This document shows positions 9,082 through 63,072 of a stretch of DNA of 64,000 nucleotides, piece by piece. A program made the translations under genes and the position numbers. Within the stretch, counting starts at the first letter, position 1. Each line of letters opens with the position of its first letter. The stretch spans positions 1 through 64,000 of the forward strand of contig JAFSUG010000001.1 of the NCBI GenBank assembly GCA_017445385.1, written 5' to 3'. Under the pieces are notes generated by a model. It saw only the letters and a list, made by a program, of their open reading frames with translations. It ran no database searches and was not told the origin of the DNA. Origin of the DNA: Oscillospiraceae bacterium. GTDB taxonomy: Bacteria > Bacillota > Clostridia > Oscillospirales > Oscillospiraceae.

Positions 9082-9099
9082 TCCGGCGCAAATTTCCGC

Positions 9100-9128
9100 T
9101 TGACAGAACATAAAGAAGTGAGTATATT
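9100..9128 (+). promoter_or_regulatory. strong promoter of the aromatic amino acid operon
   Basis: TTGACA (9100-9105), an exact 17-bp spacer and TATATT (9123-9128). Transcription should start near 9135 and run through the leader peptide and attenuator. Confidence 0.85.
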
Positions 9129-9159
9129 AGGATTAAGTTTTGAAAAGGGAGATTTCCTT

Positions 9160-9213
9160 ATGAATCAGCGCAGCTTTACCGCTTATTACTTTTACTTTAC
9201 TGTGAGAGCATAG
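9160..9213 (+). CDS. Tyr/Phe-rich leader peptide of the aro operon
   Basis: The ATG at 9160 is preceded by an AAGGGAG ribosome-binding site with 8 bases of spacing. It encodes 17 residues, MNQRSFTAYYFYFTVRA, ending at TAG 9211-9213. Six of 17 residues are Phe or Tyr, with YYFYF uninterrupted. It sits between a strong promoter and a terminator hairpin upstream of DAHP synthase, the arrangement of PheL-type attenuator peptides. No Trp codon is present, which fits an operon without trp genes. Its role as a ribosome-stalling sensor of Tyr/Phe supply is inferred. Confidence 0.85.
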   Translation: MNQRSFTAYYFYFTVRA

Positions 9214-9289
9214 TAGGGGTAATTTGTGGTGCGCTAAAGAGGAAAAGTTAGTGCCGCGCAGGTTACGCCTGTGCGGCACTTTTGGTTTT
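9186..9289 (+). promoter_or_regulatory. ribosome-mediated attenuator of the aro operon
   Basis: Three mutually exclusive RNA pairings can be drawn. Hairpin 1:2 pairs the Tyr/Phe codon region 9186-9196 with 9212-9222 (11 bp including three G-U). The terminator pairs 9251-9262 with 9268-9279 (one G-U) and is followed by TTTTGGTTTT. The antiterminator pairs 9219-9222 with 9263-9266 and 9230-9234 with 9256-9260, and would block both others. A ribosome stalled on the YYFYF codons would cover strand 1 and favour antitermination. The pairings are seen in the sequence; the mechanism is inferred. Confidence 0.75.
9251..9289 (+). terminator. attenuator terminator hairpin before aroF
   Basis: A 12-bp stem GTGCCGCGCAGG/CCTGTGCGGCAC with a TTACG loop, followed by a T-rich tail at 9280-9289. 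It lies 20 bp upstream of the aroF start codon, so termination here would prevent expression of the whole operon. Confidence 0.85.
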
Positions 9290-9309
9290 CAAATTGGGAG
9301 GGTTTTACC

Positions 9310-10314
9310 ATGATCGTTATACTGAAACACGGCGTTGCTCCGGAAAAGCAGCAGCAGCTCATTGCTTGGCTTGAAAATCTCGGCCTGCGCATCCACGTAT
9401 CGGACGGCGACTACCAAACGGTTCTCGGTCTGATCGGCGATACAACGCGCGTGGATATGGATCTCGTTGCGAGCCTTGAAATTGTCGATACGGTCAAGCG
9501 CGTGAGCGAACCGTTCAAATGCTGCAACCGCAAGTTCCATCCGGACGATATGGTTGTTGAAGTGGGCGACGTGAAGATCGGCGGCGGCAATTTTGCGATG
9601 ATCGCCGGTCCCTGCTCGGTTGAAACCGAAGAGCAGATCGTTGCCGTTGCGAAAGCGGTAAAGGCTTCCGGCGCAGATTTGCTGCGCGGCGGCGCGTTCA
9701 AGCCGCGCACGTCGCCGTATGATTTCCAGGGGCTCAAGGCAACCGGCATCGAGCTGCTGAAGATCGCAAGAAAAGAAACGGGGCTTCCGTTCGTCACCGA
9801 GGTGATGAGCACGCACGATCTGCCGCTGTTTGAGGACGTGGACGTGATCCAGATCGGCGCGCGCAATATGCAGAACTTCGATCTTCTGCGCGAGGTCGGC
9901 AAAATGAACCGCCCGATCCTGCTCAAGCGCGGCATGGCAAATACGCTCAAGGAGCTTCTGATGAGCGCGGAATATATCATGGCAAGCGGCAATGAGCGCG
10001 TGATCCTCTGCGAGCGCGGCATCCGCACGTTCGGCGATTATACGCGCAATACGCTCGATCTTTCCGCCGTTGCGGTTTTGCATGAGCTGACGCATCTGCC
10101 CGTGATCGTAGACCCCAGCCACGCAACCGGCGTCAGCCGCTACGTGCCGCCGATGGCTTGCGCGGCAGCCGCTGCCGGAGCGGACGGACTGATCATTGAG
10201 GTGCATAACGATCCGATCCATGCGCTCTGCGATGGCGCGCAGTCGCTCCGTCCGGAGGAATACGACGCGCTTGCAAAGCAGATCCGCGGCATCCGCGAGG
10301 TGCTTTCGAAATGA
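9310..10314 (+). CDS. aroF: 3-deoxy-7-phosphoheptulonate (DAHP) synthase with N-terminal regulatory domain
   Basis: Condenses phosphoenolpyruvate and erythrose-4-phosphate, the first shikimate-pathway step. The start is the ATG at 9310 after GGGAGGG, giving 334 residues beginning MIVILKHG. Residues 1-70 form the ferredoxin-like domain that in related enzymes (for example Thermotoga) gives Tyr/Phe feedback control. The catalytic barrel follows, with MIAGPCSVE near 97, [14 protein letters not shown], and C-terminal VDPSHATG. It is the first gene of the operon and overlaps tyrA by 4 bp. The symbol follows common Firmicutes usage; some annotators use aroA or aroG. Confidence 0.95.
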
Positions 10315-47875: not shown

Positions 47876-49306
47876 ATGGATAAACAGCAACTTAAAACGC
47901 AAAACAGTGGTGAACGCGCGAGAAAACCGCATGCGCAAATCAAGAGAAATCCGTGGCTCCGAATCTGGAAGCTGCTCAATATTATTGCGATCACGGGGCT
48001 TTTCGCCGCCTGTTGGTATCTCTTCTATGACAAGGAAATGCTGATCCCGTTCTTTGCGCGCGGAAATTTGGTTGTGATCGTGCTGTTCATGGTGTTCTAT
48101 CTCCTGTTCGCGCGCATCTACGCGGCGTTTTCCGTTTCGCTGATGCGCATTCGCGAGCTGGCCTACAGCCAGTCGCTGGCGATCGGGCTTTCAAACGTGC
48201 TGATTTATATCGTTATCAGCCTGCTTTCGCATGGCTTTGTGGCGGTGCTGCCGCTGCTTGTAACCATGCTTGCGCAGATGCTGCTTGCGATCGTTTGGTC
48301 GTATTGTGCGCACAGCCTTTATTATCGGAGGTTCAAACCGGCGGAAACGGTTGTGGTCTGGGATTCCCGCCAGGGACTGGAGGAAAAAATCAAAGAATAC
48401 AACCTCTATCTCCGCTTCAACGTCACAAAGAGCGTCTACATAGCCGATTGCATGCAGGATATCGGCGCAACGCTGCAGGGCGCAAAGGTTGTGTTCCTCT
48501 ACGGCATCCGCAGCGGCGAGCGCAACGATATCGTGAAATACTGCGTGAAAAACGGCGTTAAGGCATATGTGATCCCGTGCGTCGGCGATCTTCTGATGAA
48601 GAGCGCAATACCGGTCAATATGATGCATCTGCCGGTTTATATGCTGCAGCGGCATAGCCCGGGACCTGAATATCGGCTTATAAAGCGCGCGTTCGATCTG
48701 ATCGCCTCGGCGATCGCGCTGCTGATCCTTTCGCCGCTGATGCTCGTGGTTGCGCTGCTCGTCCGGCGAGACGGCGGTCCGGCGTTCTATAAGCAGACGC
48801 GCCTTACGAAAGACGGCAAGACCTTCAAGCTGATCAAATTCCGCAGTATGCGCACCGACGCCGAAAAGGACGGCGTCGCGCGTCTGTCCACCGGCGAAAA
48901 CGACGATCGCATCACGCCCGTCGGGCGTTGGATCCGCCGCTTCCGCGTGGATGAGCTGCCGCAGTTTTTGAACGTTCTGCGCGGCGATCTTTCGATCGTC
49001 GGACCGCGTCCGGAGCGTCCGGAAATCGCCGAAAAGTATGAAGAGGAGATTCCGGAATTCGCGCTGCGGCTGCAAGTAAAGGCGGGCATCACCGGCTATG
49101 CGCAGGTTTACGGCAAGTATAATACAACGGCGTATGATAAGCTGCTGCTGGATCTGCATTATATCTCAAAGGCAAGCGTGTACCAGGATTTGCAGATCAT
49201 GCTTGCAACGGTGAAGATCCTCTTCGAGCCGGAGAGCACGGAGGGCGTCGAGGTCGGGCAGACGACGGCAATCGGCGAAAGAGAGCATGAGAAAGTCGGC
49301 GTTTAA
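47876..49306 (+). CDS. undecaprenyl-phosphate phosphosugar transferase (WbaP/exopolysaccharide initiating type)
   Basis: 476 residues. Two to five N-terminal transmembrane helices (about 30-145) precede a loop domain. The C-terminal bacterial sugar transferase domain contains IKRAFDLIASAIALLILSPLM, then KFRSMRTDAE, RRFRVDELPQFLNVLRGDLSIVGPRPE and AGITGYAQVYGKYNT. It transfers a phosphosugar to undecaprenyl phosphate, beginning each repeat unit on the inner membrane face. It is the first gene of the cluster. The sugar is not predictable. Confidence 0.93.
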   Translation: MDKQQLKTQNSGERARKPHAQIKRNPWLRIWKLLNIIAITGLFAACWYLFYDKEMLIPFFARGNLVVIVLFMVFYLLFARIYAAFSVSLMRIRELAYSQSLAIGLSNVLIYIVISLLSHGFVAVLPLLVTMLAQMLLAIVWSYCAHSLYYRRFKPAETVVVWDSRQGLEEKIKEYNLYLRFNVTKSVYIADCMQDIGATLQGAKVVFLYGIRSGERNDIVKYCVKNGVKAYVIPCVGDLLMKSAIPVNMMHLPVYMLQRHSPGPEYRLIKRAFDLIASAIALLILSPLMLVVALLVRRDGGPAFYKQTRLTKDGKTFKLIKFRSMRTDAEKDGVARLSTGENDDRITPVGRWIRRFRVDELPQFLNVLRGDLSIVGPRPERPEIAEKYEEEIPEFALRLQVKAGITGYAQVYGKYNTTAYDKLLLDLHYISKASVYQDLQIMLATVKILFEPESTEGVEVGQTTAIGEREHEKVGV

Positions 49307-49333
49307 GCGTTCGCCGAACGAGGGCGTGAGAGT

Positions 49334-50509
49334 ATGAGCAATCAAAAGAAAGCCGTAATCGTGGGCGGCAGCAACGGGATCGGCCTTGCGCTGGCGTCGC
49401 AGCTGATCAGCCGCGGCTACTTCCTTGAAATCTGCGATATTGCGGACGTTGAGGAAGGCGTTTTGCCTGCGCAGAGCTACGGCTTCCACCGCTGCGATCT
49501 GCGCGATTTCGATGAAACGCCGTTCAAAGCGCTTGCGGCGGATGCGGACGTTGAAATTCTGCTTTATACGGCAGGCATCGGGCGCATCGCGGATTTTCAG
49601 TTCCACCATACGGCGGAAATTGAAAAAATACTGGCTGTGGATACCGTTTCCGCGCTGAAGGTTTTCCGCATTTTTTATGAACGGCTGCTCGGCGATCAGC
49701 CGTTCTATGCCGGCGCAATGGGCAGCATCAGCGGATGGCTGTCGTCGCCGAGCGCATCTGTCTACGCGGCGGCGAAAGCAGGGCTTGTCCGTTTCATCGA
49801 ATCTGTGAATATTGAGCTGGAAGCCTACGGCAGCGCAAATCGGATTTTGGACGTATCGCCGGCTTCGTTCGGCGGAACGAAATTCTATGGCGGAAAGAAC
49901 GATCTTTCGCAAACGCTTCCGCTTGCGGAGCAGATCCTATCCAGTCTTTTCCGCCGTGAAACGCGGCTGATTCCGCAGTATGAAGAAACGTTCCGCGGCG
50001 TGCTGGAACGCTATCGGGACGATCCCCATGCCTACGGGATGCACAGCTATGCATACAAGAAGCAGTCCGGGCGGCTGGATAATGAAAAGCGCGTTGTGAT
50101 TGGCTACCTTTCGGGCACGTTCGACCTGTTCCACGTGGGGCATCTGAATCTGCTCCGCCGCGCGAAGCAGCAGTGCGATTATCTGATCGTTGGCGTGCAT
50201 GGCAGCGGCGCATGGAAGGGAAAAGAAACGTTCATTCCGCTTGACGAACGCAAGGAGATTGTCGGCGCGTGCAAATACGTGGACAAAGTCGTCGATTCCT
50301 GCTTGGAAGATTCCGATGCGTGGGAGCTTTGGCATTTTGATAAGCTGTTCGTCGGCTCGGACTATAAGGGGACGCCGCGGTTTGAGCGGTATGAAAAGGT
50401 GCTGGGCGAAAAGGGCGTTGAGATCGTCTATTTCCCGTATACGAAAAGCACCAGCAGTACGCAGATCCGCAAAACGGTTCTGCTGAAAACGAAAGACATT
50501 GAAGCGTAA
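49334..50509 (+). CDS. SDR oxidoreductase - cytidylyltransferase fusion
   Basis: 391 residues. Residues 1-235 are a short-chain dehydrogenase: NAD motif GGSNGIG (11-17), Ser in GSISGW, and catalytic Y144/K148 in VYAAAK. Residues about 253-385 are a TagD-like cytidylyltransferase: GYLSGTFDLFHVGHLNLL with HVGH at 267-270 and the late STSSTQIRKT motif. It probably makes a CDP-polyol after reducing a precursor, used by the CDP-glycerol-transferase-like protein encoded next. This reductase/cytidylyltransferase pairing parallels TarJ/TarI, but with unrelated folds. The polyol is unknown. Confidence 0.88.
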   Translation: MSNQKKAVIVGGSNGIGLALASQLISRGYFLEICDIADVEEGVLPAQSYGFHRCDLRDFDETPFKALAADADVEILLYTAGIGRIADFQFHHTAEIEKILAVDTVSALKVFRIFYERLLGDQPFYAGAMGSISGWLSSPSASVYAAAKAGLVRFIESVNIELEAYGSANRILDVSPASFGGTKFYGGKNDLSQTLPLAEQILSSLFRRETRLIPQYEETFRGVLERYRDDPHAYGMHSYAYKKQSGRLDNEKRVVIGYLSGTFDLFHVGHLNLLRRAKQQCDYLIVGVHGSGAWKGKETFIPLDERKEIVGACKYVDKVVDSCLEDSDAWELWHFDKLFVGSDYKGTPRFERYEKVLGEKGVEIVYFPYTKSTSSTQIRKTVLLKTKDIEA

Positions 50510-50524
50510 GCTGAGGGGCAAACA

Positions 50525-51682
50525 ATGCGCGATAGACTGATTTACATCCTGAAGCATAATGCGGCAATTCAGAAGCTTTACCGCGTTGTGATGAGCTTCG
50601 TGTTTCGGGCGCTCGGCGTGTTTATCAAAACGGATGACAGTTTGGTGCTGTTCGTATCGTTTATGGGCATGGGCTTTAACGACAGTCCGAAGGCGATCTA
50701 CGATTTCATGCAGGCAAACGAGACGTACCGAAGCTATCGCTGCGTTTGGGCGTTTGAGCATCCGGAGCGGTATCCGTCGCTTGAAACCGTAAAGATTGAT
50801 AGTCCGGCGTATTTCAAAACGGCGCTGAAAGCGAAGTATTGGGTCACCAATACGAATATCGAGCGCGGTCTGAAGTTTAAGAAAAAATCGCAGGTTTATC
50901 TCAATACGTGGCATGGCATCGCGCTCAAGCATATCGGAAACGACTGCCCCGGCAGAAAGGACTATAACTTCGATACGGTCGATGCGCTCGTTGTTTCCGG
51001 CAAGCACGATGAGCGGGTTTGGAAATCGGCGTTCCACGCCGATGAGAAAACGTATTTGCGCTGCGGTATGCCGCGCAACGAGGCGCTCTGGCTTTCCGAA
51101 GACGTGCAAAAGCAGCAGATGCGCGAAAAGCTCGGGCTGCCGGCGGATAAAAAAGTGATTCTCTACGCGCCCACCTGGCGCGATAGCACGGATGGCGGAA
51201 AGAGCTATACCATCAAGCCGCCGATCCATTTTGACCTTTGGGAAAAGGAGCTGGGCGCGGATTATATCGTTCTGTTCCGCGCGCACCATCAAACAACGGC
51301 GGTGCTCGGCGTGCAGTTTAACGATTTCGTCCGGGACGTTTCCGATTACCCGGCGGTTAACGATCTGATGATCGCAAGCGATCTGCTGATCACGGACTAC
51401 AGCGCGATCGCGTTTGACTATTCGATCCTCTGCCGCCCGATTTTCTGCTATGCCTACGATTATGAAACGTACCTTGCAGAGCGCGGCACGTACTTCGATA
51501 TTGACGAGCGGTACCCCAACAAGAGCTGCCGGACGGAAAACGAGCTGCTCGGCAGGATTAAAGGGATTGATTACCGGGTTGAGTGCGAGAATACAAAACG
51601 GTTCCGTGATGCGTTTGTGACTTACGGTATCGGTGCTACAGAAGCTTGCGTAAATGCGTTGATTGGAGAGACAAAGCAATGA
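50525..51682 (+). CDS. CDP-glycerol:polyol glycerophosphotransferase family protein (TagB/TagF-like)
   Basis: 385 residues of the Glyphos_transf family. Motifs: YLNTWHGIALKHIGNDCPGRKDYNF with the catalytic His, YAPTWRDS, the second-half FRAHHQTTA, DVSDYPAVNDLMIASDLLITDYSAIAFDY. The enzyme transfers a polyol phosphate from a CDP-activated donor to a glycan or lipid acceptor at the cytoplasmic face. Substrate supply from the preceding fusion is likely. It overlaps the following acetyltransferase by 4 bp. Confidence 0.9.
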   Translation: MRDRLIYILKHNAAIQKLYRVVMSFVFRALGVFIKTDDSLVLFVSFMGMGFNDSPKAIYDFMQANETYRSYRCVWAFEHPERYPSLETVKIDSPAYFKTALKAKYWVTNTNIERGLKFKKKSQVYLNTWHGIALKHIGNDCPGRKDYNFDTVDALVVSGKHDERVWKSAFHADEKTYLRCGMPRNEALWLSEDVQKQQMREKLGLPADKKVILYAPTWRDSTDGGKSYTIKPPIHFDLWEKELGADYIVLFRAHHQTTAVLGVQFNDFVRDVSDYPAVNDLMIASDLLITDYSAIAFDYSILCRPIFCYAYDYETYLAERGTYFDIDERYPNKSCRTENELLGRIKGIDYRVECENTKRFRDAFVTYGIGATEACVNALIGETKQ

Positions 51683-52107
51683 ATGCTTTATGGAAACTGT
51701 CTCATAAGCTGTATGGCTCAGGGAGGATATTTCGCCCGCTTGCTCGTTTTACGGAAATGCTTCAGCAGACGGTATGTTCAAACGCCGTAAGCTCCAAGTG
51801 TGAAATTGGAAGCGGTACTGTTTTCTTCCATCATGGATTGGGATGCACGGTTCATTTCAATGCAACGATAGGAAGTAATTGCAAGATATTCTCCAACGTT
51901 ACAATCGGGGATCAGTGGAGCGGGGTTGTCAGAACCGAAGCGGCTCCAACCATAGGCAATCATGTGATGATTGGCGCCGGAGCGGTTATCCTTGGCAGTA
52001 TTAAAGTTGGGGATAACAGCATTATAGGCGCAAATGCGGTAGTTACGAAAGACGTTCCGGCAGGCTCGCTTGTCGTAGGAGCAAATAAGATCATGGAAGG
52101 CAATTAG
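51679..52107 (+). CDS. serine-acetyltransferase-like O-acetyltransferase (hexapeptide repeat)
   Basis: 142 residues from the ATG at 51679 (ATGA overlap). The left-handed beta-helix repeats are evident (IGSGTVFFHHGLGCTVHFNATIGSNCKIF..., read in part), then IGNHVMIGAGAVILG and IIGANAVVTKDVPAGSLVVG. It lacks the long N-terminal helical domain of CysE, so it is more likely a polysaccharide O-acetyltransferase than a cysteine-biosynthesis enzyme. This gene and the start of the next are visibly AT-richer than their neighbours, a sign of separate acquisition. Confidence 0.85.
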   Translation: MNALWKLSHKLYGSGRIFRPLARFTEMLQQTVCSNAVSSKCEIGSGTVFFHHGLGCTVHFNATIGSNCKIFSNVTIGDQWSGVVRTEAAPTIGNHVMIGAGAVILGSIKVGDNSIIGANAVVTKDVPAGSLVVGANKIMEGN

Positions 52108-52123
52108 AGGGGAAGACTCCGAT

Positions 52124-53338
52124 ATGAAAGTGCTGATTTATATGAGCGGAGGGTTTGATACTTACGGCCCTTCCCGACATCTATATAATGCCTTAATTGA
52201 AGATTTGCTGCTCGGAGGACATACGGTTCATCTTATCGAAAGCCATTCATCGGGGACTGACCCCGATGCGCCGGAGAACCTACTGGCGTTTGAGAAGTTC
52301 TCATACGAAACTGTAACGACGCAGGTCGTTGAGAAAAAAGCATTTGTAAAAAGATATCTTACCGGCGTGAGATACTGCTTTGACAGCATTCCGGTTTTGA
52401 AGCGGCAGCATGGCTTCGACGTCATGATGGTCCAGTCCTGCCCGTGGGCGCCGTTTGCGGTCTCTTTTGCAAAACGGTACGTCAAGATTCCAACGATTTG
52501 GAATATCCAGGATATGTTCCCCGGCGCGTCCATCGCAAACGGCGTGATGCGTCAGAAGTGGATGCAGCGGTTTTTCTACCGCTTCCATAAGATCGCCTAT
52601 AAAAAGGCGGATCATATTTCCGTGATTTCCGAGGATATGAAGCGCAAGGTCATGGCGCAGGGCGTCGCGGCGGAGAAGATCACCGTGATCCCCGATTGGT
52701 ACGATGATCAGAGCGTGCGGGAGATCCCGTGGGAAGAGAACCGCTTCGTTCAGAAATACGATATGCAGCGGGATATCTTCTACGTGCAGTATGCCGGAAC
52801 GATGGGCTTTAACTTTGACTATCGCATGGTCGTAAAGGTTGCAAAGCTGCTGCAGGGCGAGAAGAATATCGTGTTCCAGATGATCGGCTTCGGCAGCCAG
52901 AAAGCGGATTTTGAAGCGGCTGTCAAGGAAGAAAAGCTCGATAACGTCGTGTTTTTGCCGCTTGAGCCGCAGGAGATGGTGCCCCACGTTTACAGCGCGT
53001 GCTCGGTTTGCCTCATTCCGCTGCCCTACGGCGTAATCGGCAATTCCGTTCCGAGCAAGGCAGGCCTCTTAATGGCGTGCCGCCGCGTAATCGTAACCTC
53101 CGCCGATCCGGATTCGGAGTATAACGAAATGTTCGGCAGAGAGCAGATCGGCGTCGCCTGCGGCTGTGATGATCCGAAAGCCGTTGCGGACGCGATCGTC
53201 GCCCTGCGCGATAATCCCGAGCTGCGCGAGGCGTATGCCGAAAACGCCTACCGCTACGGAACGTCGCATTATTCCAGAGCTATGAATACGGCGCTGTATG
53301 AAAAGCTGTATCGGGACATGGCGAAAGAGAGCTGCTGA
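52124..53338 (+). CDS. glycosyltransferase family 4 (WcaI-like)
   Basis: 404 residues with GT-B architecture. The N-terminal domain has the Gly-rich GPSRHLYNAL segment and IWNIQDMFP. The C-terminal domain has YAGTMGFNFDYRMVVKVAKLL and the donor-binding PSKAGLLMACRRVIVTSADPDSEYNEMFG region. It adds a sugar to the growing lipid-linked unit, donor unknown. A ribosome-binding site (GAGGGGAAGAC) precedes the ATG. The first 300 bases are AT-richer than the rest of the cluster. Confidence 0.87.
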   Translation: MKVLIYMSGGFDTYGPSRHLYNALIEDLLLGGHTVHLIESHSSGTDPDAPENLLAFEKFSYETVTTQVVEKKAFVKRYLTGVRYCFDSIPVLKRQHGFDVMMVQSCPWAPFAVSFAKRYVKIPTIWNIQDMFPGASIANGVMRQKWMQRFFYRFHKIAYKKADHISVISEDMKRKVMAQGVAAEKITVIPDWYDDQSVREIPWEENRFVQKYDMQRDIFYVQYAGTMGFNFDYRMVVKVAKLLQGEKNIVFQMIGFGSQKADFEAAVKEEKLDNVVFLPLEPQEMVPHVYSACSVCLIPLPYGVIGNSVPSKAGLLMACRRVIVTSADPDSEYNEMFGREQIGVACGCDDPKAVADAIVALRDNPELREAYAENAYRYGTSHYSRAMNTALYEKLYRDMAKESC

Positions 53339-53339
53339 T

Positions 53340-54383
53340 ATGTACGAGATAGGCATTTGGGGACAGTTCGGCGACGGCGGCAAAATCGCCGACGGACAGG
53401 CTGTCCGCACAACCATCATAACGAATGAGCTGCGGCAGCGCTACGGCGCGGACCGGGTGCTCATCGCAAATACGAACGGATGGAAAAAACGCAAGGCTTC
53501 GTTTTTTCTGGAGTGCGTGCGGCTGATCCGCCGCTCAAAGCGCGTCTTGATTGCTCCGGCGGACAACGGCTTTAAGGTGTTCGTTCCAATCCTCATGGCG
53601 ATCAACAGCATCTTCCATCGGGAGCTTTACTATATCGTGATCGGCGGCTTTTTGCCGCAGCTTCTGAAGGATCACCCCCGATATAAAAAACTCGTAAACC
53701 GTTTCCGCGCGCTGTTCGTGCAAACGGAGAATCTGAAAAAAGACCTGCAAGCGCTCGGCGTGGAGCGGATATACATCCTTTCCAATCCGAAGCGGCTGCA
53801 TACGCGCAGCGAATCGGAACTGACGCTTCAAACGGAGCAAAAGCTCAAGCTCTGCGTATTTTCCCGAATCTATGGGGACAAAGGCGTTGAGGACGCGATC
53901 GAGGCAGTCCGCCTTGCAAACCAGCGGCTCGGCGGTGAATACCTCTCGCTCGACCTCTACGGGCTTCTGCCCGATGCCTACCGCGAGCGGCTCTCGGAGC
54001 TGCTGAAGCAGTATGGCTCGTTTGTGCGGTACCTCGGCATCGTGGACTACGATAAAACGGTTGAAACGCTGAAAAATTACTTTTTGATGCTGTTTCCCAC
54101 CTATTACCATGGCGAGGGCTTCCCCGGCAACGTCGTTGATGCGTATAACAGCGCGCTGCCCATCATCGCCACGGATTGGCTGTATAACAGCGACGTGATC
54201 AAGGACGGCAGAAACGGCATTCTCGTGCCGATCAAAGATCCGGAAGCGATCGCGGACGCGATTTTGCGCCTGTATCACGATCGCGCGCTTGCGCTGCAAT
54301 TTGCGAAAAACTGTTTGGAGGACGCGGCGCAGTATCAGCCGGATCGCGTGCTTGCGGAATTCTACCGCGTTTTGGAGTCATAA
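53340..54383 (+). CDS. glycosyltransferase, GT-B fold (GT4-like)
   Basis: 347 residues from the ATG at 53340, one base after the previous stop. The N-terminus is GIWGQFGDGGKIADGQAVRTTIITNEL (read in part). The C-terminal GT4 domain includes FSRIYGDKGVEDAIEAVRLA, then FPTYYHGEGFPGNVVDAYNSALPIIATDW, the usual donor-binding Glu segment. It lacks any signal peptide and so acts in the cytoplasm on the lipid-linked glycan. Donor and acceptor are unknown. Confidence 0.87.
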   Translation: MYEIGIWGQFGDGGKIADGQAVRTTIITNELRQRYGADRVLIANTNGWKKRKASFFLECVRLIRRSKRVLIAPADNGFKVFVPILMAINSIFHRELYYIVIGGFLPQLLKDHPRYKKLVNRFRALFVQTENLKKDLQALGVERIYILSNPKRLHTRSESELTLQTEQKLKLCVFSRIYGDKGVEDAIEAVRLANQRLGGEYLSLDLYGLLPDAYRERLSELLKQYGSFVRYLGIVDYDKTVETLKNYFLMLFPTYYHGEGFPGNVVDAYNSALPIIATDWLYNSDVIKDGRNGILVPIKDPEAIADAILRLYHDRALALQFAKNCLEDAAQYQPDRVLAEFYRVLES

Positions 54384-54410
54384 AAGCAGAAGAGAAGGAA
54401 CGAAATAAAG

Positions 54411-55598
54411 ATGTCAAATAAGAAAGATGTCCTTTTTTTGTGTCAGTTCTTTTATCCGCAAAACAGTTCCTCCGCGCTGCTCCCGTATGAAACCGCAAAA
54501 GACCTCGCATCGCGCGGTTTCACCGTTGACGCGCTTGTGGGCGGCGCAGAGCGCGGTATTCCCAAAAAAGAAACGGTTGATGGCGTCGGCGTAACGCGCC
54601 TGCGTTATCTCCATCCAAGCCGCGGCGGTCTGCTCGGCAAACTGATCGGCTATGCGTCGTTTGCGTTTGCCGCGCTCGGCAGCGTAAAAAAGATCGGACG
54701 CTACCGCGCGGTCGTTGTGTATACAAATCCGCCGATTCTGCCGCTTGCCGCGCTCGCGGCAAAGCGCCGCTTCGGCACGAAGCTCATCTTCGTGGCTTAC
54801 GACGTTTATCCCGAAATCGCCGAAGCGGTGGGCGCGATCTCTCCGCGCGGACTGACCGCGCGGCTGATGCGGCGGCTCAATCGCGCGCTCTATCGCAGCG
54901 CCGATACGGTCGTTGCGCTCGCGGATGAAATGCGCGAATATCTGCTTGCGCACCGCAAGGAGCTGGATCCTTCGCGGATCGTAACGATCCATAACTGGGC
55001 AACCGGCGTGCAGCTTGATGCGCCGCGTCCGGAACATCAAGCGCCGGTGGTTGTGTCGTATATCGGCAACGTCGGCCCGTGCCAGGAGCTTGAAACGCTG
55101 CTCGGCGCAGCGTCGCTTCTGCAGGGGGACGACCGCGTCCGCTTTATGATTCTCGGCAGCGGCAGCCGCATGGCGGCGCTTGCGCAGCAGATCCGGAATT
55201 TGAAGCTGCAAAACGTGCAGCTGTGTATCGATCCGGATGCGCGGACGATAGAAGAGGCGTTCGCGCAAACGGACATGGCGGTGATCGGTCTGCGAGCAGG
55301 GCTTACCGGTCTGTGCGCGCCGAGCAAGTATTATAATCATTTGCAATTCGGCCATGCGATGCTTGCCGTGGCGGATGCGGATTCCTATCTTTACAAAGAA
55401 ATTCAATCCGCCGATCTCGGCAGATGTGCCGAGCCGGGTGATTCCGCGCGGCTGTACGATGGAATCTGCGAGCTGGCGGGAAATGCGCCGCTGCGCGCGG
55501 AAATGGGCAAGCGCGCCAAGGCGCTGTATGAGAAAAAATATTCAAAAGCGCGCGCAATGGAGCAGTATGCTGCCGTTATTGCTGCGCAGCTAAATTGA
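54411..55598 (+). CDS. glycosyltransferase family 4 (WbuB/WcaI-like)
   Basis: 395 residues with a GT-B fold. N-terminal FLCQFFYPQNSSSALLPYETAKDLASRG is typical of the WbuB branch, with VVVYTNPPILPLAALAAKRRFGTKLIFVAYDVYPEIAEAVG following. The C-terminal half has VSYIGNVGPCQELETLLGAA, LCIDPDARTIEEAFAQTDMAVIGLRAGL and PSKYYNHLQFGHAMLAV. Members often transfer N-acetylhexosamines, but the donor here is unproven. It lies 27 bp after the previous gene. Confidence 0.88.
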   Translation: MSNKKDVLFLCQFFYPQNSSSALLPYETAKDLASRGFTVDALVGGAERGIPKKETVDGVGVTRLRYLHPSRGGLLGKLIGYASFAFAALGSVKKIGRYRAVVVYTNPPILPLAALAAKRRFGTKLIFVAYDVYPEIAEAVGAISPRGLTARLMRRLNRALYRSADTVVALADEMREYLLAHRKELDPSRIVTIHNWATGVQLDAPRPEHQAPVVVSYIGNVGPCQELETLLGAASLLQGDDRVRFMILGSGSRMAALAQQIRNLKLQNVQLCIDPDARTIEEAFAQTDMAVIGLRAGLTGLCAPSKYYNHLQFGHAMLAVADADSYLYKEIQSADLGRCAEPGDSARLYDGICELAGNAPLRAEMGKRAKALYEKKYSKARAMEQYAAVIAAQLN

Positions 55599-55630
55599 AC
55601 GCGGTTTCGGAAAGGGCGATTTTGCGCTGC

Positions 55631-56803
55631 ATGAAAACGATCAGGCTTGATTATTACATCGATACGGTGATCCCGTCGGATCGGGCGAACACCGTGCACG
55701 TTATGAAGATGTGCCGCGCATTGCAGGCGGCAGGCGCGGAGGTCACGCTCCACTGCAACACGGATGACCGCAGCGCCGCCGCGCATCAAAGCGCGATCTG
55801 GGAGAAATACGGCGTAGACGAATGCTTCACGATCCGCCAAACGTATGTGCCGCGGCTGCTTCGCACGAAGCTGCATCGCATCGGCATCCTTTACGGCGCG
55901 TTTTGCAAAGCGTGCTCCGGCAGCCGTGATGCGATCGCCTACGGCAGATCGCCCTATGCGCTCTATTTTCTCCGCAAGCGCCGCCCGTTCCTCTATGAGG
56001 CGCACGCCGAACCCGGCGATAAAACGCGAAAGTTGGAGGAAAAGCTGCTCCGATCGAAAAACTGCATTGGCTTGGTCGTGATCAGCGATGCGCTGAAAAA
56101 ACGCTATCTGGAGCTGTTTCCGTTTCTCAAGCCGGAACGCATCACCGTTTTGCATGATGGCGCGGACGAAGCGCAGCCGTGCGAGCCGGCGGTGCTCCGC
56201 GGCGATTCGGGCGGCGTAAAGATCGGCTATCTCGGATCGCTGTATCCGGGCAAATGCATGGAAACGCTGATTCCGCTTGCGGCTGCCTGCCCGCAGTGGA
56301 CGTTCCACGTTGTCGGCGGTGCGCCGCAGTGGCTTTCGCATTGGAAATCGGAAGCGCAGGCGGCAGGCGCAGCGAATCTCGTCTTTTACGGCCAGGTGGA
56401 TAACGCGGCGGTTGGCGCATATTATGAGGCGTTTGATATCTGCCTGATGCCGTTTTCAAAGAACGTATTCGTGGATCAGAATAAGCGCCTCAATATCGGA
56501 AGTTGGATCTCGCCGCTGAAGCTGTTTGAGGCGATGGCGCGCGGCAAAGCGATTTTAGTGGCGCGGCTGCCCTCGATCGAGGAAGTTGTATCGGACGGCG
56601 AGCAGTGCGTTTTTGCCGAGCCGGATCACGTTTCCGACTGGGCTGAAAAGCTCAAAACGCTCGTATCGGACGGTGCGCTTCGCGCGCGGCTTGGCGCCGC
56701 GGCAAAGCAAACGCTAAAAGCGCGTTATACGTGGGAAATCCGCGCGAAAGCGCTGCTGGAAAAGCTCCGCGAAAGCGATAGAGAAAGGAACGCAACACAG
56801 TGA
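55631..56803 (+). CDS. glycosyltransferase, GT-B fold (GT4-like)
   Basis: 390 residues from the ATG at 55631 (MKTIRLDYYIDTVIPSDR). A TTG 36 bases upstream overlaps the preceding stop and is a possible alternative. Motifs: NTVHVMKMCRALQAAGAEVTLHC, YEAHAEPGDKTRK, VVISDALKKRYLELF, IGYLGSLYPGKCMETL and SPLKLFEAMARGKAILVARLPSIEEVV, the standard donor site. Its stop overlaps the Wzy-like gene by 4 bp. Confidence 0.88.
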   Translation: MKTIRLDYYIDTVIPSDRANTVHVMKMCRALQAAGAEVTLHCNTDDRSAAAHQSAIWEKYGVDECFTIRQTYVPRLLRTKLHRIGILYGAFCKACSGSRDAIAYGRSPYALYFLRKRRPFLYEAHAEPGDKTRKLEEKLLRSKNCIGLVVISDALKKRYLELFPFLKPERITVLHDGADEAQPCEPAVLRGDSGGVKIGYLGSLYPGKCMETLIPLAAACPQWTFHVVGGAPQWLSHWKSEAQAAGAANLVFYGQVDNAAVGAYYEAFDICLMPFSKNVFVDQNKRLNIGSWISPLKLFEAMARGKAILVARLPSIEEVVSDGEQCVFAEPDHVSDWAEKLKTLVSDGALRARLGAAAKQTLKARYTWEIRAKALLEKLRESDRERNATQ

Positions 56804-57999
56804 AATCAGAAGCGAAAGGCATAACTGCATACGGCTTTTTTGCGGCGCTTGCAATTGTGCTGATCCCGTTTAACGCGATCAATATTGCAGGGCGGGGCAT
56901 TTTGATCTACGTCTGCATTCCGCTGCTCCTGTTTGGAATCGTGCGGCTTTTGAGCCACAGAGACCAGCTTTCGGTTACGCTTTTGCAGCTTTCGCTGCTG
57001 CTGTTCTTTGCGTATTATCTTGTTGCGTCGCTTTGGAGCCCGAAGCGCGGAATGGACACGGCATACAACTTTATCAAGGTTTTTATATTCACGGTTTGCA
57101 TTGCGTTCGGCGATTATACGGCGAAAGAAAAGAAGCTGCTGATGTTTGCCTCGTTTATAACGGGTTTGCTCGTTTGCGCGATGCTGCTGTGGGGCGCAGC
57201 CGCTGCGGTTGAAAATTCGCAGCGCGTTACGATCAGCGTTTTCGGAACGAACAGAGATCCCAACTACCTCTGCTTCTCGCTGCTGTTTCCCGCGCTGATC
57301 TGCGTGCGCGGTCTGCTTTCCAAACGCGCGCTGCTTGCAAAAATCTTCTTTGCGGCGATCCTGCTGGTTCTGATCTATTGCACGATCAGCACCGGCTCGC
57401 GCGGCGGTGCGGTTGCGCTTGCGGCGGTTATCGTTGTGTACTTCCTGTATTGGGGCAGAATGCGGCGCGGACGGAAGATTCTGATGATCCTCGTTGCGCT
57501 GCTGCTGGTTTATATCGCGCAGCAGATGATGAACAGTATGCCGGAGGAGATCATAAGCCGCTTTAGCTATGAAAAAGTTGCAAAAACGGGCGGCGGCGGC
57601 CGTATGGATATCTGGACGCGCGTTTTCAGGTTGATTTTCGCGTCTCCGGTCCGCTTCCTGATCGGCTACGGCTCCGGCGCAAGCGTGATCCTTGCCGGCA
57701 TCGCAACGCATAACCATCTGCTGCAGATCTGGCTGGAAAACGGCATCGTCGGGCTTACGCTGTACGGCGTATTCCTGATTAACCTGCTGCGCTATTTGCT
57801 GCGCCGCAAAAACGGAACAACGATCGCGGTGTTTTTCGCGGCGATCCTGCTGTCGCTGACGCTCTCGGTGCAAACGATCCCATCGTTCTGGTCGGTGATC
57901 GCGTTGTGCATCGGGCTGGGGGATTATCAGCCGTTTTTCAAGACAGAGGCGGCAAAACCGCAGCAGATTGAAGACGCCGGAAAGGAGCAGCCGCAATGA
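56800..57999 (+). CDS. O-antigen ligase/polymerase family membrane protein (Wzy-like)
   Basis: 399 residues with about ten transmembrane helices. A WaaL/Wzy-type core is seen in TISTGSRGGAVALAAVIVVYFLYW and the downstream periplasmic-type loop (about 245-300: RFSYEKVAKTGGGGRMDIWTRVF, then THNHLLQIWLENGIVGL). This His-containing THNHLLQ segment is typical of the family. It should polymerise repeat units on the outer face or ligate chains. The flippase is encoded two genes downstream. Confidence 0.87.
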   Translation: MKSEAKGITAYGFFAALAIVLIPFNAINIAGRGILIYVCIPLLLFGIVRLLSHRDQLSVTLLQLSLLLFFAYYLVASLWSPKRGMDTAYNFIKVFIFTVCIAFGDYTAKEKKLLMFASFITGLLVCAMLLWGAAAAVENSQRVTISVFGTNRDPNYLCFSLLFPALICVRGLLSKRALLAKIFFAAILLVLIYCTISTGSRGGAVALAAVIVVYFLYWGRMRRGRKILMILVALLLVYIAQQMMNSMPEEIISRFSYEKVAKTGGGGRMDIWTRVFRLIFASPVRFLIGYGSGASVILAGIATHNHLLQIWLENGIVGLTLYGVFLINLLRYLLRRKNGTTIAVFFAAILLSLTLSVQTIPSFWSVIALCIGLGDYQPFFKTEAAKPQQIEDAGKEQPQ

Positions 58000-58838
58000 A
58001 GAAAATCGCAATGCTGTATATCTGCACCGGGAAATACGAAATTTTCTGGGATAAATTCTATGAAACGTGCCAAAAGCATTTCTATCCCGATGCGGAAAAA
58101 GAATACTTCATCTTTACCGATAGCGAGCGCGTTTTGCGCTGCAAGCTGCCGGGCGTACATACCTACTATCAGGCAAAGACCGGCTGGCCGTATGATACGC
58201 TGCTGCGCTATCAGTGGTTCTGCACGGTGCAGGATGCGCTCGCGCCGTTTGACTATTGCTACTACGTCAACGCGAACAGCGAATTCTTGCGCGACGTTAC
58301 CGAAGCGCAGATCCCGTATCCCACGGAGAGAGAGCCGCTCGTTTTGAGCCTGCATCCGCGTTATTATCACGATCTTGACGGCAGCGAATGCAGTCCGGAG
58401 CGTCGCCCGGAATCGCGGGCGTACGTTGCGCCGGGAACGCCCTGCCGCGCGCATTGCGGCGCGTTTTGGGGCGGCACGCGCGATGCGGTGCTGGAGATGT
58501 GCCGCACGCTGCGCGATCGGACGGCGGAGGACCTGGCGGACGGTGTGATCGCCGTTTGGCACGATCAGTCGCACCTGATCAAATACGCAACGGAGGTTCC
58601 GCATCAGAACATCGCGGAATTCCTTGTAAGCTATGAGGAATACGCCGATCCGGAAAAGTGCCTGCTGATGTTTCCGGCAAAGGCAAAATACGGCGGCAAC
58701 GATAAGCTGCGCGAAGTTTCGCGCGATGAGCGCCTGAAGCATCTGCCGCGGAAAATCTACCGCAGTATGCTCGGCGGCGCGAAAAAGCTGCATCTGGACG
58801 GCGCGCTGAAGGGCGTTGCCCGCATTGTCAAAAAGTGA
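57996..58838 (+). CDS. glycosyltransferase family 6 (ABO/alpha-1,3-GalT-like)
   Basis: 280 residues. Clear GT6 hallmarks: LYICTGKYEIFWDKFYETC at the start, FIFTDSER, the NxN motif N92-A93-N94 (in place of the vertebrate DxD), LVLSLHPRYY, ERRPESRAYV, GAFWGGTRDAV and WHDQSHLIKY (188-197). GT6 enzymes add alpha-1,3-Gal or GalNAc with retention. NxN forms in bacteria are metal-independent. The Glu normally found in WHDES is Gln191 here, which could abolish or alter catalysis. Overlaps of 4 bp with the Wzy-like gene place it in the operon. Confidence 0.9.
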   Translation: MKKIAMLYICTGKYEIFWDKFYETCQKHFYPDAEKEYFIFTDSERVLRCKLPGVHTYYQAKTGWPYDTLLRYQWFCTVQDALAPFDYCYYVNANSEFLRDVTEAQIPYPTEREPLVLSLHPRYYHDLDGSECSPERRPESRAYVAPGTPCRAHCGAFWGGTRDAVLEMCRTLRDRTAEDLADGVIAVWHDQSHLIKYATEVPHQNIAEFLVSYEEYADPEKCLLMFPAKAKYGGNDKLREVSRDERLKHLPRKIYRSMLGGAKKLHLDGALKGVARIVKK

Positions 58839-58853
58839 ATTTGAGGGTTCCGC

Positions 58854-60182
58854 ATGATCGATAAGCTGAAGGGGAAAGTGAAAACACTCGCAAAAAATCC
58901 CCTCGTCATCAACTATATATGGGTGTTTCTCGGGCAGAACGGCGGCGCGATCTTTTCGATGCTGTCGCTGGTTCTGACGCTGCGGATCATCTCCACGCTG
59001 GAATACGGTTCGCTCGTCATTATCCAAACGTATACCAATCTGCTCTCCAATCTCTTCTGCCTGCGCACGTTCAACGGCGTTATCAAATTCGTAACGTCTG
59101 CGGAGGCGGAAGGCGATTCCCTGCGCGCGAAAAAATATATCAACACCGCGTTTTTGCTTGATGCGATCATGGGCGCAGTGGCGTTTGTATGCGGCTTTTT
59201 CCTGCTGCAGCCGATCACGCGCCTGTTCGGCTGGGAGCCGGAAACGGTGCGCCTGACGAACTATTATATCCCGCTGCTGCTGTTCATGCCGGTGCTCAAC
59301 GGTGCGCCGGTCGGTCTGCTGCGCAAGCTCGGCTATTTCAAGCAGGTCAATATAATCCATGCCGTCGTTTTCGGGCTGCAAACGGCGGTTCTGCTCGCAA
59401 CGTGGATGCTCGGCGTCCATTCGTTTATCGTGGTGCTGCTGGAGTACGCCGCCACGGAGATGATCGAATGTATCGTGCTTGTGATCTATTGCCTGCGCGT
59501 CACCTATAAAAACGAGCAGTATCGCGGCTTTTGGAAAGCCGGCTTCACCTTTGAAGGCGAATTTATGCGCCATAACGTCTATTACGGCTTGACCTCTACC
59601 TTCGATGAGATCCTCGGCAACGTTTCCACGCTGCTGATCAATAAATACGTCGGTACGCTCGCAACCGCGTATATCAAGGTCATTACAAGAATCTGCAACG
59701 TCTTCCAGAAGGTTACGAAGCCGATCAACCAGGTGTTCTACCCGGAGCTTTGCGAATGGGTTACGCAGAAGCAGTATAAAAAGGCGCATCGCGTTTCCAT
59801 GAAATACCTCGGCATCGTCTGCGCGGCAGGCGCCGCGCTCGTTGCCGTGCTGTTCGGCACCTACGATTGGTGGATCGTGATCTTCGATGCCGCCATGACG
59901 ACAGCTAAGCTGCAATCGCTGCTGTATATGGTTTATACGATCCTCGGCATCTCGCTGATCTGCATGAATCAGCTCATGTTCGCAATCGATCTCGCAAGGG
60001 AAAGCCTGATCATCGTAGCGATCTGCGATCTGCAGTTTTTGGTCGTGCTGGTTCCGTGCGTGCAAACCTACGGCATCTATGGCTATCTGCTGCTGCAGAT
60101 CGCGCAGTTGTTTGCCGTAGCCGGCTTTAAATATTTCTTCATTTCGCGCCGCGTCCATAAACTGGAAAGGCAAAAAGCGTAA
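58854..60182 (+). CDS. polysaccharide flippase (Wzx/MATE-like)
   Basis: 442 residues with about twelve transmembrane helices. The polysaccharide-transporter pattern is seen in NYIWVFLGQNGGAIFSMLSLVLTLRIISTLEYGSLVI (read in part), AFLLDAIMGAVAFVCGFFLLQPI and later NVSTLLINKYVGTLATAYIKV. It flips lipid-linked repeat units to the outer membrane face for the Wzy-like polymerase. It begins 15 bp after the GT6 gene. Confidence 0.9.
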   Translation: MIDKLKGKVKTLAKNPLVINYIWVFLGQNGGAIFSMLSLVLTLRIISTLEYGSLVIIQTYTNLLSNLFCLRTFNGVIKFVTSAEAEGDSLRAKKYINTAFLLDAIMGAVAFVCGFFLLQPITRLFGWEPETVRLTNYYIPLLLFMPVLNGAPVGLLRKLGYFKQVNIIHAVVFGLQTAVLLATWMLGVHSFIVVLLEYAATEMIECIVLVIYCLRVTYKNEQYRGFWKAGFTFEGEFMRHNVYYGLTSTFDEILGNVSTLLINKYVGTLATAYIKVITRICNVFQKVTKPINQVFYPELCEWVTQKQYKKAHRVSMKYLGIVCAAGAALVAVLFGTYDWWIVIFDAAMTTAKLQSLLYMVYTILGISLICMNQLMFAIDLARESLIIVAICDLQFLVVLVPCVQTYGIYGYLLLQIAQLFAVAGFKYFFISRRVHKLERQKA

Positions 60183-60194
60183 CGGAGGACTGCT

Positions 60195-61226
60195 GTGAGA
60201 GAAACGGATCTACGCGCCGTCAGCGTAACGAAAACGCTGATGATGCTGCTCGTTGTGCTCGGCCATGCGTGTATCGTGTTTGCCGCAAGCGCGTGGGGCG
60301 GCGTAACGCCATTGCGGCAAAGCCTGCCAATCGCGTATTTCGCGCGCTTTCTGGAGCTGACGCATACGCAAACGTTTTTCGTCTGCTCCGGCTTTTTCTT
60401 CGCGCTGCGGCGCTATGAAAAGGGGAAATACCGCACGATGGGCTATGACCTGAAGCATCGGGCGAAGCGGCTGCTTGTGCCGTATGCGGTCATCTCGGTT
60501 TTCTGGGCGGCGCCTGCCGATTACTTTGCGAAGGGTCTTGCCCCTGCGCAGCTTGCGAAAAACTACCTGCTCGGCTTCGATCCGGCGCAGCTCTGGTTTT
60601 TGCTGACGCTGTTCCTGCTGTATATCCTGTTTTATTTCACAAGCGACCGTGTTTTGAAGCTGCCCGTCTGGCTCGGAATTTTGGGATTCCTCGCGGTACG
60701 CTATCTCGGCGTTTTGCTGACCGAGCTGCGTCTGCCGCTGCGCGTACTGCGCTTCGATGCGTTTTTGCGCTCCGCGCTGTATTTCTACCTTGGACTGCTC
60801 TTGCAGCAGCGCCGGCTCTGCATTCCGCGCGCAAGGTGGCTTCCGCTTCTGCTTGCGCTCTGCGCCGGTTCGTTCGCGCTGTACGCGGTAAAGTGCATCG
60901 ATTCCGAATGCAATGCGTATCTCAAGGAAACGCTGATGCTGTTTGTGAATCTTTCGGGCGTATTTGCGTATCTCTGCATCGGAACGCTGCTGAAAAACCT
61001 GTATGAAAAGCCGTTTTTCGCGGCGCTGTCAGCCGCCGGCATGGGCATCTATCTATTGCATCAGCAGATCCTCTATGCCACGATGCGTCTTACGAATTTT
61101 GCTTGGATCGCGCCGCTTGCGTTCGTGATCGTAAACTTCTGCGCTGCGGCTGCGATCGCGTGGGGACTGACGTGGCTGCTAAAGCGCACCGCAATCGGAA
61201 GAGCCGCGCTTGGGGAGGCAAAATGA
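60195..61226 (+). CDS. acyltransferase family 3 membrane protein
   Basis: 343 residues with about ten transmembrane helices. The N-terminus (SVTKTLMMLLVVLGHACIVF) carries the catalytic-type His of the Acyl_transf_3 family, then FVCSGFFFALRRYEKGKYRTMGYDLKHRAKRLLVPY. Members move acetyl or similar groups onto extracytoplasmic glycans. It probably decorates the polymer made by this cluster. A GTG start at 60195 follows a GGAGG. It overlaps the next gene by 4 bp. Confidence 0.88.
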   Translation: MRETDLRAVSVTKTLMMLLVVLGHACIVFAASAWGGVTPLRQSLPIAYFARFLELTHTQTFFVCSGFFFALRRYEKGKYRTMGYDLKHRAKRLLVPYAVISVFWAAPADYFAKGLAPAQLAKNYLLGFDPAQLWFLLTLFLLYILFYFTSDRVLKLPVWLGILGFLAVRYLGVLLTELRLPLRVLRFDAFLRSALYFYLGLLLQQRRLCIPRARWLPLLLALCAGSFALYAVKCIDSECNAYLKETLMLFVNLSGVFAYLCIGTLLKNLYEKPFFAALSAAGMGIYLLHQQILYATMRLTNFAWIAPLAFVIVNFCAAAAIAWGLTWLLKRTAIGRAALGEAK

Positions 61227-62170
61227 AAGTTTGTATCATAGGCGTTTATTTCGGGAAACTGCCCTCGTTTTTTCCGCTGTGGCTGCGTTCGTGCGCCTGC
61301 AATCCGAGCGTGGATTTCCTGCTCGTAACCGATCAGGCGCTTTCGGAGCTGCCGCCAAACGTGCATCTTCTGCCGATGCGCCTTTCGGAGATGAAAGCGC
61401 TTGCCGATGAAACGCTCGGAATGGAAACGGCGCTGACTACGCCGTATAAATGCTGCGATTTCAAGCCTGTTTACGGCGTGATTTTCGCAAAGTGGCTTTC
61501 GGGGTACGATTATTGGGGCTGCTGCGATTTTGATATGATTTTCGGTGATCTCGCGTCGTTTTTCGAGCGATTTCATCTTGAGAACTATGATAAATTTCTG
61601 CCGCTCGGTCACCTCGCGCTCTACCGCAATACGCCGCAGTGCAACGCGCGCTACCGTCTGATCCCGAAGTCGGGCAATTCCTATCTTGCGTCGTTCACAA
61701 ATCCAAATACAACGCAGTTTGATGAGCTTGGCGGCATCAACGCGATCTATCTGGAAAACGGCTTCCCGTTTTTTCGCGAGCGGATCTTTGCGGATATTTC
61801 CAAAAGCGTGCGCCGGCTGATGCTCGTTGAGGACTATCCCGACGCGCATGAGAAAAACTATCGTGACCAGATCTTTTTCTGGGAAAACGGCAAGGTTTTC
61901 CGCGCGTTTTACGAGAAGAATGAGCGAAAAACGGAAGAATTTATCTATATTCATCTAAAAAAGAGAAACCTGCCCGCGCCGGTTTTTGATATCGAAAAAA
62001 TAGCCTGCTATCTGATCACGGCGGAGGGCTTCGAGCCATATAACGCAGAAGCGCTGACAAAAGCTGAGATTCGCCGCCGCAACCGCTCCTACGGGCGCCT
62101 TGCCGAGCGGTTTGAGCGCGGCGTCGTATACCGCGTTCGGAAGAAGCTGCGCCGGCTGAAAAAGAAATAA
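61223..62170 (+). CDS. DUF6625-type putative glycosyltransferase
   Basis: 315 residues from the ATG at 61223. The N-terminus (MKVCIIGVYFGKLPSFFPLWLRSC) and the DxD-bearing WGCCDFDMIFGDL near 105-117 match the DUF6625 family, thought to be GT-A glycosyltransferases. KPVYGVIFAKWLSGYDYWG precedes the DxD. The C-terminus is basic (RRRNRSYG, then RVRKKLRRLKKK), consistent with membrane association. Donor and acceptor are unknown. The stop shares bases with the next ATG. Confidence 0.8.
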   Translation: MKVCIIGVYFGKLPSFFPLWLRSCACNPSVDFLLVTDQALSELPPNVHLLPMRLSEMKALADETLGMETALTTPYKCCDFKPVYGVIFAKWLSGYDYWGCCDFDMIFGDLASFFERFHLENYDKFLPLGHLALYRNTPQCNARYRLIPKSGNSYLASFTNPNTTQFDELGGINAIYLENGFPFFRERIFADISKSVRRLMLVEDYPDAHEKNYRDQIFFWENGKVFRAFYEKNERKTEEFIYIHLKKRNLPAPVFDIEKIACYLITAEGFEPYNAEALTKAEIRRRNRSYGRLAERFERGVVYRVRKKLRRLKKK

Positions 62171-62181
62171 TGGGAGAACGC

Positions 62182-63072
62182 ATGAAGAAAAAACTGAGTT
62201 TTGCGCGTGTTTTCGCGCATCTGGACCGAAAATACGGCATGCATTTCGTGCCGGATAAGCTGTGCCTGGAGCTGCTCTATCGCGCCGCGATGGGGAAGAA
62301 GCTGCGCCTGGATCCGCCCGTTACCTTTACGGAGAAGCTGCAGTGGATCAAGCTCTACGACCGCCGCGACGTCTATACAACGATGGTGGATAAGATCGCG
62401 GCAAAGCAGTGGGCAGCGGAGAAGATCGGCGCGGAGCATATCATCCCCACGCTCGGCACATGGAAGCACTTTGACGAGATTGATTTTGACGCGCTGCCCG
62501 AGCAGTTCGTGCTCAAATGCAACCATGATTCGCATAGCGCGATCATCTGCCGCGATAAAATGACATTTGACCGCGAAAAAGCGCGGAAAAAGCTTGAAAA
62601 ATCGCTTAAAAAGAATTATTATTATGATAGTAGACAGTGGCCGTATAAAAACGTTCCGCCGATGATCCTTGCCGAGCAGTATTTGCCCGGCGATGAAAGC
62701 GGCGATCTGCGCGATTATAAGTTCTTCTGCTTCGGCGGAGTGCCTAAGCTGATGTACGTTGCGCAGGGCAGATCTGCCGGCGCGGTCTACGGCGATTTCT
62801 TCGATATGGACTATCGCCATCTCGATCTGAAGATCGATCATGATACCGCGCCCGTGCCGCCGGAAAAACCGCAGACGTTCGAAAAAATGCGCGAGGCGGC
62901 AGCCGTGCTTTCGGCGGGCATTGCGCAGGTCCGCGCGGACTTCTATGAACTGAATGGCGAATTCTATTTCGGGGAAATGACGTTTTTCCATTGCGGCGGT
63001 TTCTATCCGTTCACGCCTGCCGAATGGGATGAGACGCTCGGAAGCTGGATCGAGCTTCCGGAAAAACCGTAA
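62182..63072 (+). CDS. TupA-like ATP-grasp protein
   Basis: 296 residues from the ATG at 62182, preceded by GGGAG; an ATG at 62170 lacks a site. TupA-like signatures: FTEKLQWIKLYDRRDVYTTMVDKIAAKQWAAEKIG, YIIPTLGTW-type segment (HIIPTLGTWKHFDEID), FVLKCNHDSHSAIICRDK and LRDYKFFCFGGVPKLMYVA. TupA adds polyglutamate-type chains to cell-wall polymers in Bacillus, and relatives in capsule clusters attach amino acids. It closes the packed run of cluster genes. Confidence 0.87.
   Translation: MKKKLSFARVFAHLDRKYGMHFVPDKLCLELLYRAAMGKKLRLDPPVTFTEKLQWIKLYDRRDVYTTMVDKIAAKQWAAEKIGAEHIIPTLGTWKHFDEIDFDALPEQFVLKCNHDSHSAIICRDKMTFDREKARKKLEKSLKKNYYYDSRQWPYKNVPPMILAEQYLPGDESGDLRDYKFFCFGGVPKLMYVAQGRSAGAVYGDFFDMDYRHLDLKIDHDTAPVPPEKPQTFEKMREAAAVLSAGIAQVRADFYELNGEFYFGEMTFFHCGGFYPFTPAEWDETLGSWIELPEKP

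Follow-up and report, generated by a model that had tools for sequence, protein, structure and literature searches.

The window analysed here, a stretch of 64,000 nucleotides from an Oscillospiraceae bacterium, holds an intact polysaccharide cluster (47876-63072), inside which lies a gene for a family 6 glycosyltransferase (GT6). The annotated genes, all on the forward strand, are as follows.

47876..49306, +: Bac_transf initiating sugar-phosphate transferase, at the cluster start (PF02397, 211.7 bits)
49334..51682, +: cytidylyltransferase/short-chain dehydrogenase fusion (CDP-ribitol-type), then a Glyphos_transf polymerase (PF01467, PF00106, PF04464)
52124..56803, +: four GT4-like glycosyltransferases (PF00534/PF13439/PF13692)
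56800..57999, +: Wzy_C polymerase/ligase-like protein, overlapping the GT6 start (PF04932, 52.6 bits)
57996..58838, +: GT6 glycosyltransferase (P0001), Gln-type, 280 amino acids (PF03414, 58.7 bits, cut-off 25; PDB matches; AlphaFold)
58854..60182, +: MatE-type, Wzx-like flippase (PF01554, 24.9 bits, at the cut-off)
60195..61226, +: Acyl_transf_3 acyltransferase (PF01757, 94.7 bits)
61223..62170, +: DUF6625 protein with a CDFD motif (PF20330, 291 bits)
62170..63072, +: TupA-like ATP-grasp protein (PF14305, 202 bits)

A hexapeptide-repeat acetyltransferase-like protein is also encoded in the cluster. The dehydrogenase/cytidylyltransferase fusion and the Glyphos_transf protein suggest that polyol-phosphate units are built into the polymer, and we infer that the product is a phosphate-containing, lipid-linked repeat-unit polymer of capsule or teichoic type.

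The GT6 gene had been described as intact and part of a tight operon, and it is. Its reading frame is unbroken, its start codon shares bases with the stop codon of the preceding Wzy gene (ATGA, within AATGA), a ribosome-binding site (AAAGGAG) stands just 5' of the start, and 15 bp separate its stop from the start of the flippase gene. No Pfam family other than PF03414 matched the protein, which by its sequence is a member of that family and of CAZy GT6. It is the single GT6 copy in the genome (1.5 Mb, 95% complete). The best PDB sequence matches are to BoGT6a, the alpha-1,3-GalNAc transferase of Bacteroides ovatus (4cj8/4cjb/4ayj, E 7e-36), with which it shares ~31% identity.

Glutamine at the catalytic position

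The open reading frame and its translation bear out the original prediction of a GT6 protein with an NxN motif and a WHDQS sequence in which residue 191 is Gln, encoded by CAG. The residues and segments that matter to the argument are these.

58206..58208, +: Arg71, equivalent to BoGT6a Arg73 (family alignment)
58269..58277, +: NxN motif Asn92-Ala93-Asn94, metal-independent type, equivalent to BoGT6a Asn95-Asn97 (family alignment)
58557..58571, +: WHDQS motif, residues 188-192, with Gln191 against BoGT6a Glu192 (family alignment)
58566-58568, +: codon CAG of Gln191, aligned with the catalytic Glu192 of BoGT6a
58578..58580, +: Ile195, aligned with BoGT6a Asn196, one helical turn after Gln191 (family alignment)
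58635..58637, +: Glu214, candidate surrogate carboxylate in the acceptor-side loop (clade-specific)
58680..58682, +: Lys229, equivalent to BoGT6a Lys231 (family alignment)
58716..58835, +: C-terminal tail of 40 residues, basic (net +9) and predicted to be helical

Glutamate occupies the position of Gln191 in 150/150 other GT6 proteins, a de-duplicated set of bacterial, cyanophage and BoGT6a sequences. An alignment-based search through 84,980 species genomes, its pattern open to Glu or Gln at this site, matched 215 relatives. The 80 best loci were retained, and each scan behind the GT6 set likewise kept the 80 relatives most similar to its query. Since the pattern behind most of the 150 proteins admitted Glu or Gln but no third residue, a residue-neutral Pfam profile search was added, covering the class and the genomes close to three carriers of Glu-type GT6. 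All 41 loci that it recovered, some of them overlapping the 150-protein set, carry Glu, and all 41 have Asn at the site of Ile195 (36 by motif search, five by eye). Scans with single sequences recovered no GT6 relatives from genome contigs or viral contigs, whereas the alignment-based scans succeeded.

The sole close homologue found belongs to Oscillospiraceae bacterium RGIG6917 from sheep rumen (locus L008), the best of the 215 relatives. This genome (2.3 Mb, near-complete) comes from the same family as that of the window but from a different genus, and its DNA recurs in another genome collection as G660 (100% complete, 2% contaminated). The two GT6 proteins are about 68% identical (67-68%) over 278 residues, and both read WHDQSHLIKY with a CAG codon for the glutamine. 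Beyond these two genomes, no Gln-type GT6 turned up when 394 genomes from the order, 401 from the family and 391 from the class were searched, nor among 198 relatives of the L008 genome. In viral contigs, a Gln-specific DNA pattern gave two matches, neither of them to GT6 (WHDQT in another protein). The open-access literature, to which our search was confined, yielded no report of a natural Gln-type GT6. The original prediction had asked whether Gln occurs in a clade or whether all relatives carry Glu: there is a two-member clade, the closest relative having Gln (CAG) and all other GT6 proteins examined Glu. The Gln-type GT6 is confirmed as a natural variant, rare yet conserved, within a well-studied family, not a new type of system.

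In the tree the two Gln-type proteins, from two genera of one family, group together with full support, and the stem that leads to them is long (1.42 changes per column). Between them dN is 0.28 and dS about 2.6, giving a dN/dS of about 0.1, a ratio that is only approximate because dS is saturated. The two agree at 28 of the 29 positions with a family conservation of 90% or more, compared with a fraction of 0.65 at variable positions. Their GT6 identity (67%) exceeds that of the shared GT4 (43%), DUF6625 (57%) and TupA (48%) proteins. Comparison of the two sequences indicates that Gln191 is maintained under long-term purifying selection, which is evidence of function, not of catalysis. CAG and GAG lie one transversion apart, so Gln191 could have arisen through gene decay or through a mistake in sequencing or assembly. 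Yet the frame is intact and the identical CAG recurs in a second, independent genome whose protein is 68% identical, with synonymous sites saturated. We give this explanation practically no credence, and error and pseudogene alike were ruled out by the homologue together with the dN/dS.

The DUF6625 and TupA genes accompany the Gln-type GT6 at the L008 locus as well (DUF6625 at 8851-9798), whereas DUF6625 is found in 0/79 fetched flanks of Glu-type GT6 loci. The fetched stretch of the L008 cluster holds no counterpart of the polyol-phosphate fusion and Glyphos_transf genes. The DUF6625 protein, with its CDFD motif, may itself be a GT-A-like enzyme; a structure prediction from the two sequences reached a pLDDT of 34.

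The searches also bear on the wider distribution of GT6. The literature places the NxN GT6 clade in Gram-negative bacteria. We find NxN-type GT6 to be common in Bacillota of the Gemmiger/Faecalibacterium type (loci L027, L038, L050, L054, L056, L058-L059, L061-L062, L067, L070, L071, L073, L075, L076, L078, L079 and L082). In a search around G1324, 29/180 genomes carry such genes, and several of these have two copies. Two faecal scaffolds labelled as unverified 'Bacteriophage sp.' (L002, MT838506; L003, MT836157) carry GT6 genes that group with Gemmiger/Faecalibacterium, and may be either prophage or bacterial DNA with a wrong phage label. Further, each of six viral contigs carries two different GT6 genes (L127, L128, L133, L135, L136 and L145).

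Fold and active centre

The AlphaFold model of the protein has a mean pLDDT of 92.9, and Foldseek aligns it with BoGT6a (E 7e-25) and with ABO-type GT6 structures (E about 1e-19). The listed top 50 PDB matches of the model are all BoGT6a or human ABO-type transferases. Its best match is 4cj8 chain E, BoGT6a E192Q co-crystallised with UDP-GalNAc, the example given for donor-bound structure A in the study of that mutant (PMC3961637). The model confidently predicts a GT-A fold nearest to GT6 structures. Among bacterial GT6 proteins the first Asn of the NxN motif is present in 71/71 and the second in 70/71, and the window protein, judged by its motif, fits this metal-independent subgroup.

Twenty-seven positions are near-invariant, with a conservation of 93% or more across other GT6 proteins, and both Gln-type proteins keep 24 of them. 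The three departures, in BoGT6a numbering, are Tyr153 to Ala/Ser (Ala152 in the window protein), Glu192 to Gln and Asn196 to Ile. The last of these sites has Asn in 150/150 other GT6 proteins and Ile in both members of the pair. In the AlphaFold model Gln191 and Ile195 lie on the same helix (190-198); because the two sites are one helical turn apart, the replacements of Glu192 and Asn196 are likely to have been coupled. The original prediction held that all GT6 landmarks are kept, which stands for the NxN motif and for most positions but is slightly too strong, since two near-invariant residues besides the glutamate have also changed.

The apparatus for handling the donor, as known from BoGT6a, is retained. 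W64-P65 is present in the Gln-type proteins, and so are T11, Y14, R71, N92/N94, D190 (BoGT6a Asp191) and K229, whose BoGT6a equivalents take part in uracil, diphosphate or donor-sugar binding or in stabilising the leaving group; Arg73 touches the donor sugar and Lys231 steadies the UDP leaving group (PMC3961637). A pairwise alignment had set Pro against Lys231, as if the leaving-group lysine were missing, but the family alignment places Lys229 there.

On the acceptor side, H120, W188 and E215 are kept, and align with acceptor-contacting residues of human GTB. The clade-specific residues cluster at 150-153 and in a loop at 207-218 (A207, V211, Glu214, Y216 and D218), whose equivalent in solved GT6 structures faces the acceptor. 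Both Gln-type proteins have Glu214 where 122/150 others have Pro and about 2% an acidic residue. The basic C-terminal tail probably serves membrane association.

Comparison with characterised enzymes places these features in context. BoGT6a (4ayj, 4cj8, 4cjb, 4cjc) shares the fold, the NxN motif and equivalents of Arg73, Lys231 and Asp191, and its engineered E192Q substitution is the natural residue of the window protein. It differs in having Glu192 and Asn196 where the window protein has Gln191 and Ile195, and the latter adds a remodelled acceptor loop, an altered 150-153 segment and a basic tail of 40 residues. Human GTA/GTB (ABO) and bovine alpha-1,3-galactosyltransferase, also of CAZy GT6, have the GT-A fold and WHD-x-S in common with it but, unlike it, possess a metal-dependent DxD motif and the glutamate (Glu303/Glu317), and their acceptor chemistry probably differs. 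Glu-type bacterial and cyanophage GT6 proteins (L009-L167) share the family and most invariant residues, but in every one of them Glu and Asn occupy the two sites, and the cyanophage members have DxD. LgtC of Neisseria, a retaining GT-A enzyme, has Gln at the beta face of C1, as proposed below for the window protein; it belongs to another family (GT8) and has a metal-dependent DxD. The likeness is one of mechanism, not of descent.

Proposed catalysis without the family glutamate

The GT6 glutamate has long been proposed as the catalytic nucleophile, and the literature argues both for and against a covalent glycosyl-enzyme intermediate. Most retaining glycosyltransferases use a front-face route, while GT6 is cited as the sugar-nucleotide family with a suitably placed nucleophile (PMC10372902). 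In BoGT6a the E192Q substitution leaves 4e-5 of the activity, yet the binding free energy for UDP-GalNAc is about that of the wild type and slow hydrolysis of UDP-GalNAc persists (PMC3961637). LgtC naturally places Gln189 closest to C1, where GTA has Glu303 (PMC3731257). With Gln191 replacing the conserved catalytic Glu, the window protein is, on its sequence, not among the Glu-dependent GT6 enzymes.

We consider it somewhat better than an even chance that this is an active, metal-independent retaining enzyme of GT6 fold, which works by front-face transfer with Gln191 and without the family nucleophile in building a capsule or teichoic-type repeat unit. Activity is favoured by the strong purifying selection and the kept donor-handling residues. 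The reading gains further support from the residual donor binding and slow turnover of E192Q, the natural Gln of LgtC, the front-face route of most retaining glycosyltransferases, the galE gene as a source of UDP-Gal and the intact polysaccharide cluster. The enzyme would add an alpha-linked sugar, at best guess Gal or a Gal-like sugar, to the lipid-linked repeat unit. Gln191 would approach the anomeric carbon of the donor from its beta side, like Gln189 of LgtC, and help to place the donor sugar, while the acceptor would attack by a front-face (SNi-like) route and Lys229 and the NxN motif would handle the UDP leaving group. Gln alone cripples BoGT6a, so activity would need compensation by clade-specific changes, which may re-tune the active centre. 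Activity, mechanism and the identities of donor and acceptor are all read from such comparisons, and front-face transfer with Gln191 and compensating co-changes appears the most economical account.

The protein could instead be catalytically inactive and serve as a scaffold, a donor sensor or a lectin-like subunit while still binding UDP-sugar, much as E192Q keeps its donor-binding energy with near-total loss of catalysis (PMC3961637); the altered Tyr153 and Asn196 sites and the long stem branch before the clade fit such a history. A mere binder, however, would not need the full UDP-expelling set of K229, R71, NxN and D190, and this is a single-domain glycosyltransferase within a biosynthetic cluster, in a genome without a catalytically intact GT6 paralogue to regulate. 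We regard inactivity as unlikely. Improbable, too, is that the nucleophile, or a carboxylate touching the acceptor, has been relocated, a clade-specific acidic residue having taken over the role of Glu192. Glu214, beside the conserved Glu215, is the most obvious candidate, being common to both Gln-type proteins, rarely acidic elsewhere and set among the other clade-specific residues of its loop, but that loop faces the acceptor. Moreover, a residue of this kind is dispensable in most retaining glycosyltransferases (PMC10372902).

The original prediction also raised mimicry of host glycans, and for this there is little support. A classic enzyme of the ABO or alpha-Gal kind, with host-type epitopes (A, B or alpha-Gal) as its product, would be consistent with the GT6 fold, with the retained H120, W188 and E215, and with the galE gene of the genome (438.6 bits), through which UDP-Gal can be made. 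Ala156, at a site where GTB (Gal) has Ala and GTA (GalNAc) has Gly, points weakly to UDP-Gal as donor. However, the annotated cluster genes include no alpha-1,2-fucosyltransferase or any other fucosyltransferase, which leaves blood-group mimicry unsupported; the cluster is of a polyol-phosphate type, and the acceptor loop is heavily remodelled in the Gln clade. We hold such epitopes to be very unlikely.

To return to front-face transfer with Gln191, its implication would be that one GT6 lineage lacks the proposed Glu nucleophile and still achieves efficient retaining transfer with Gln, either through a shift of mechanism within the family or because the nucleophile was never needed. We put this a little below an even chance. 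Candidate compensations are Ile195, Ala/Ser152, Glu214 and the 150-153 and 207-218 segments. If full activity with Gln proves true, the GT6 architecture can work without the nucleophile. A Gln-type GT6 under purifying selection is a natural test of the need for Glu in ABO-related enzymes, and makes the long-running dispute between covalent-intermediate and front-face mechanisms in this family directly testable.
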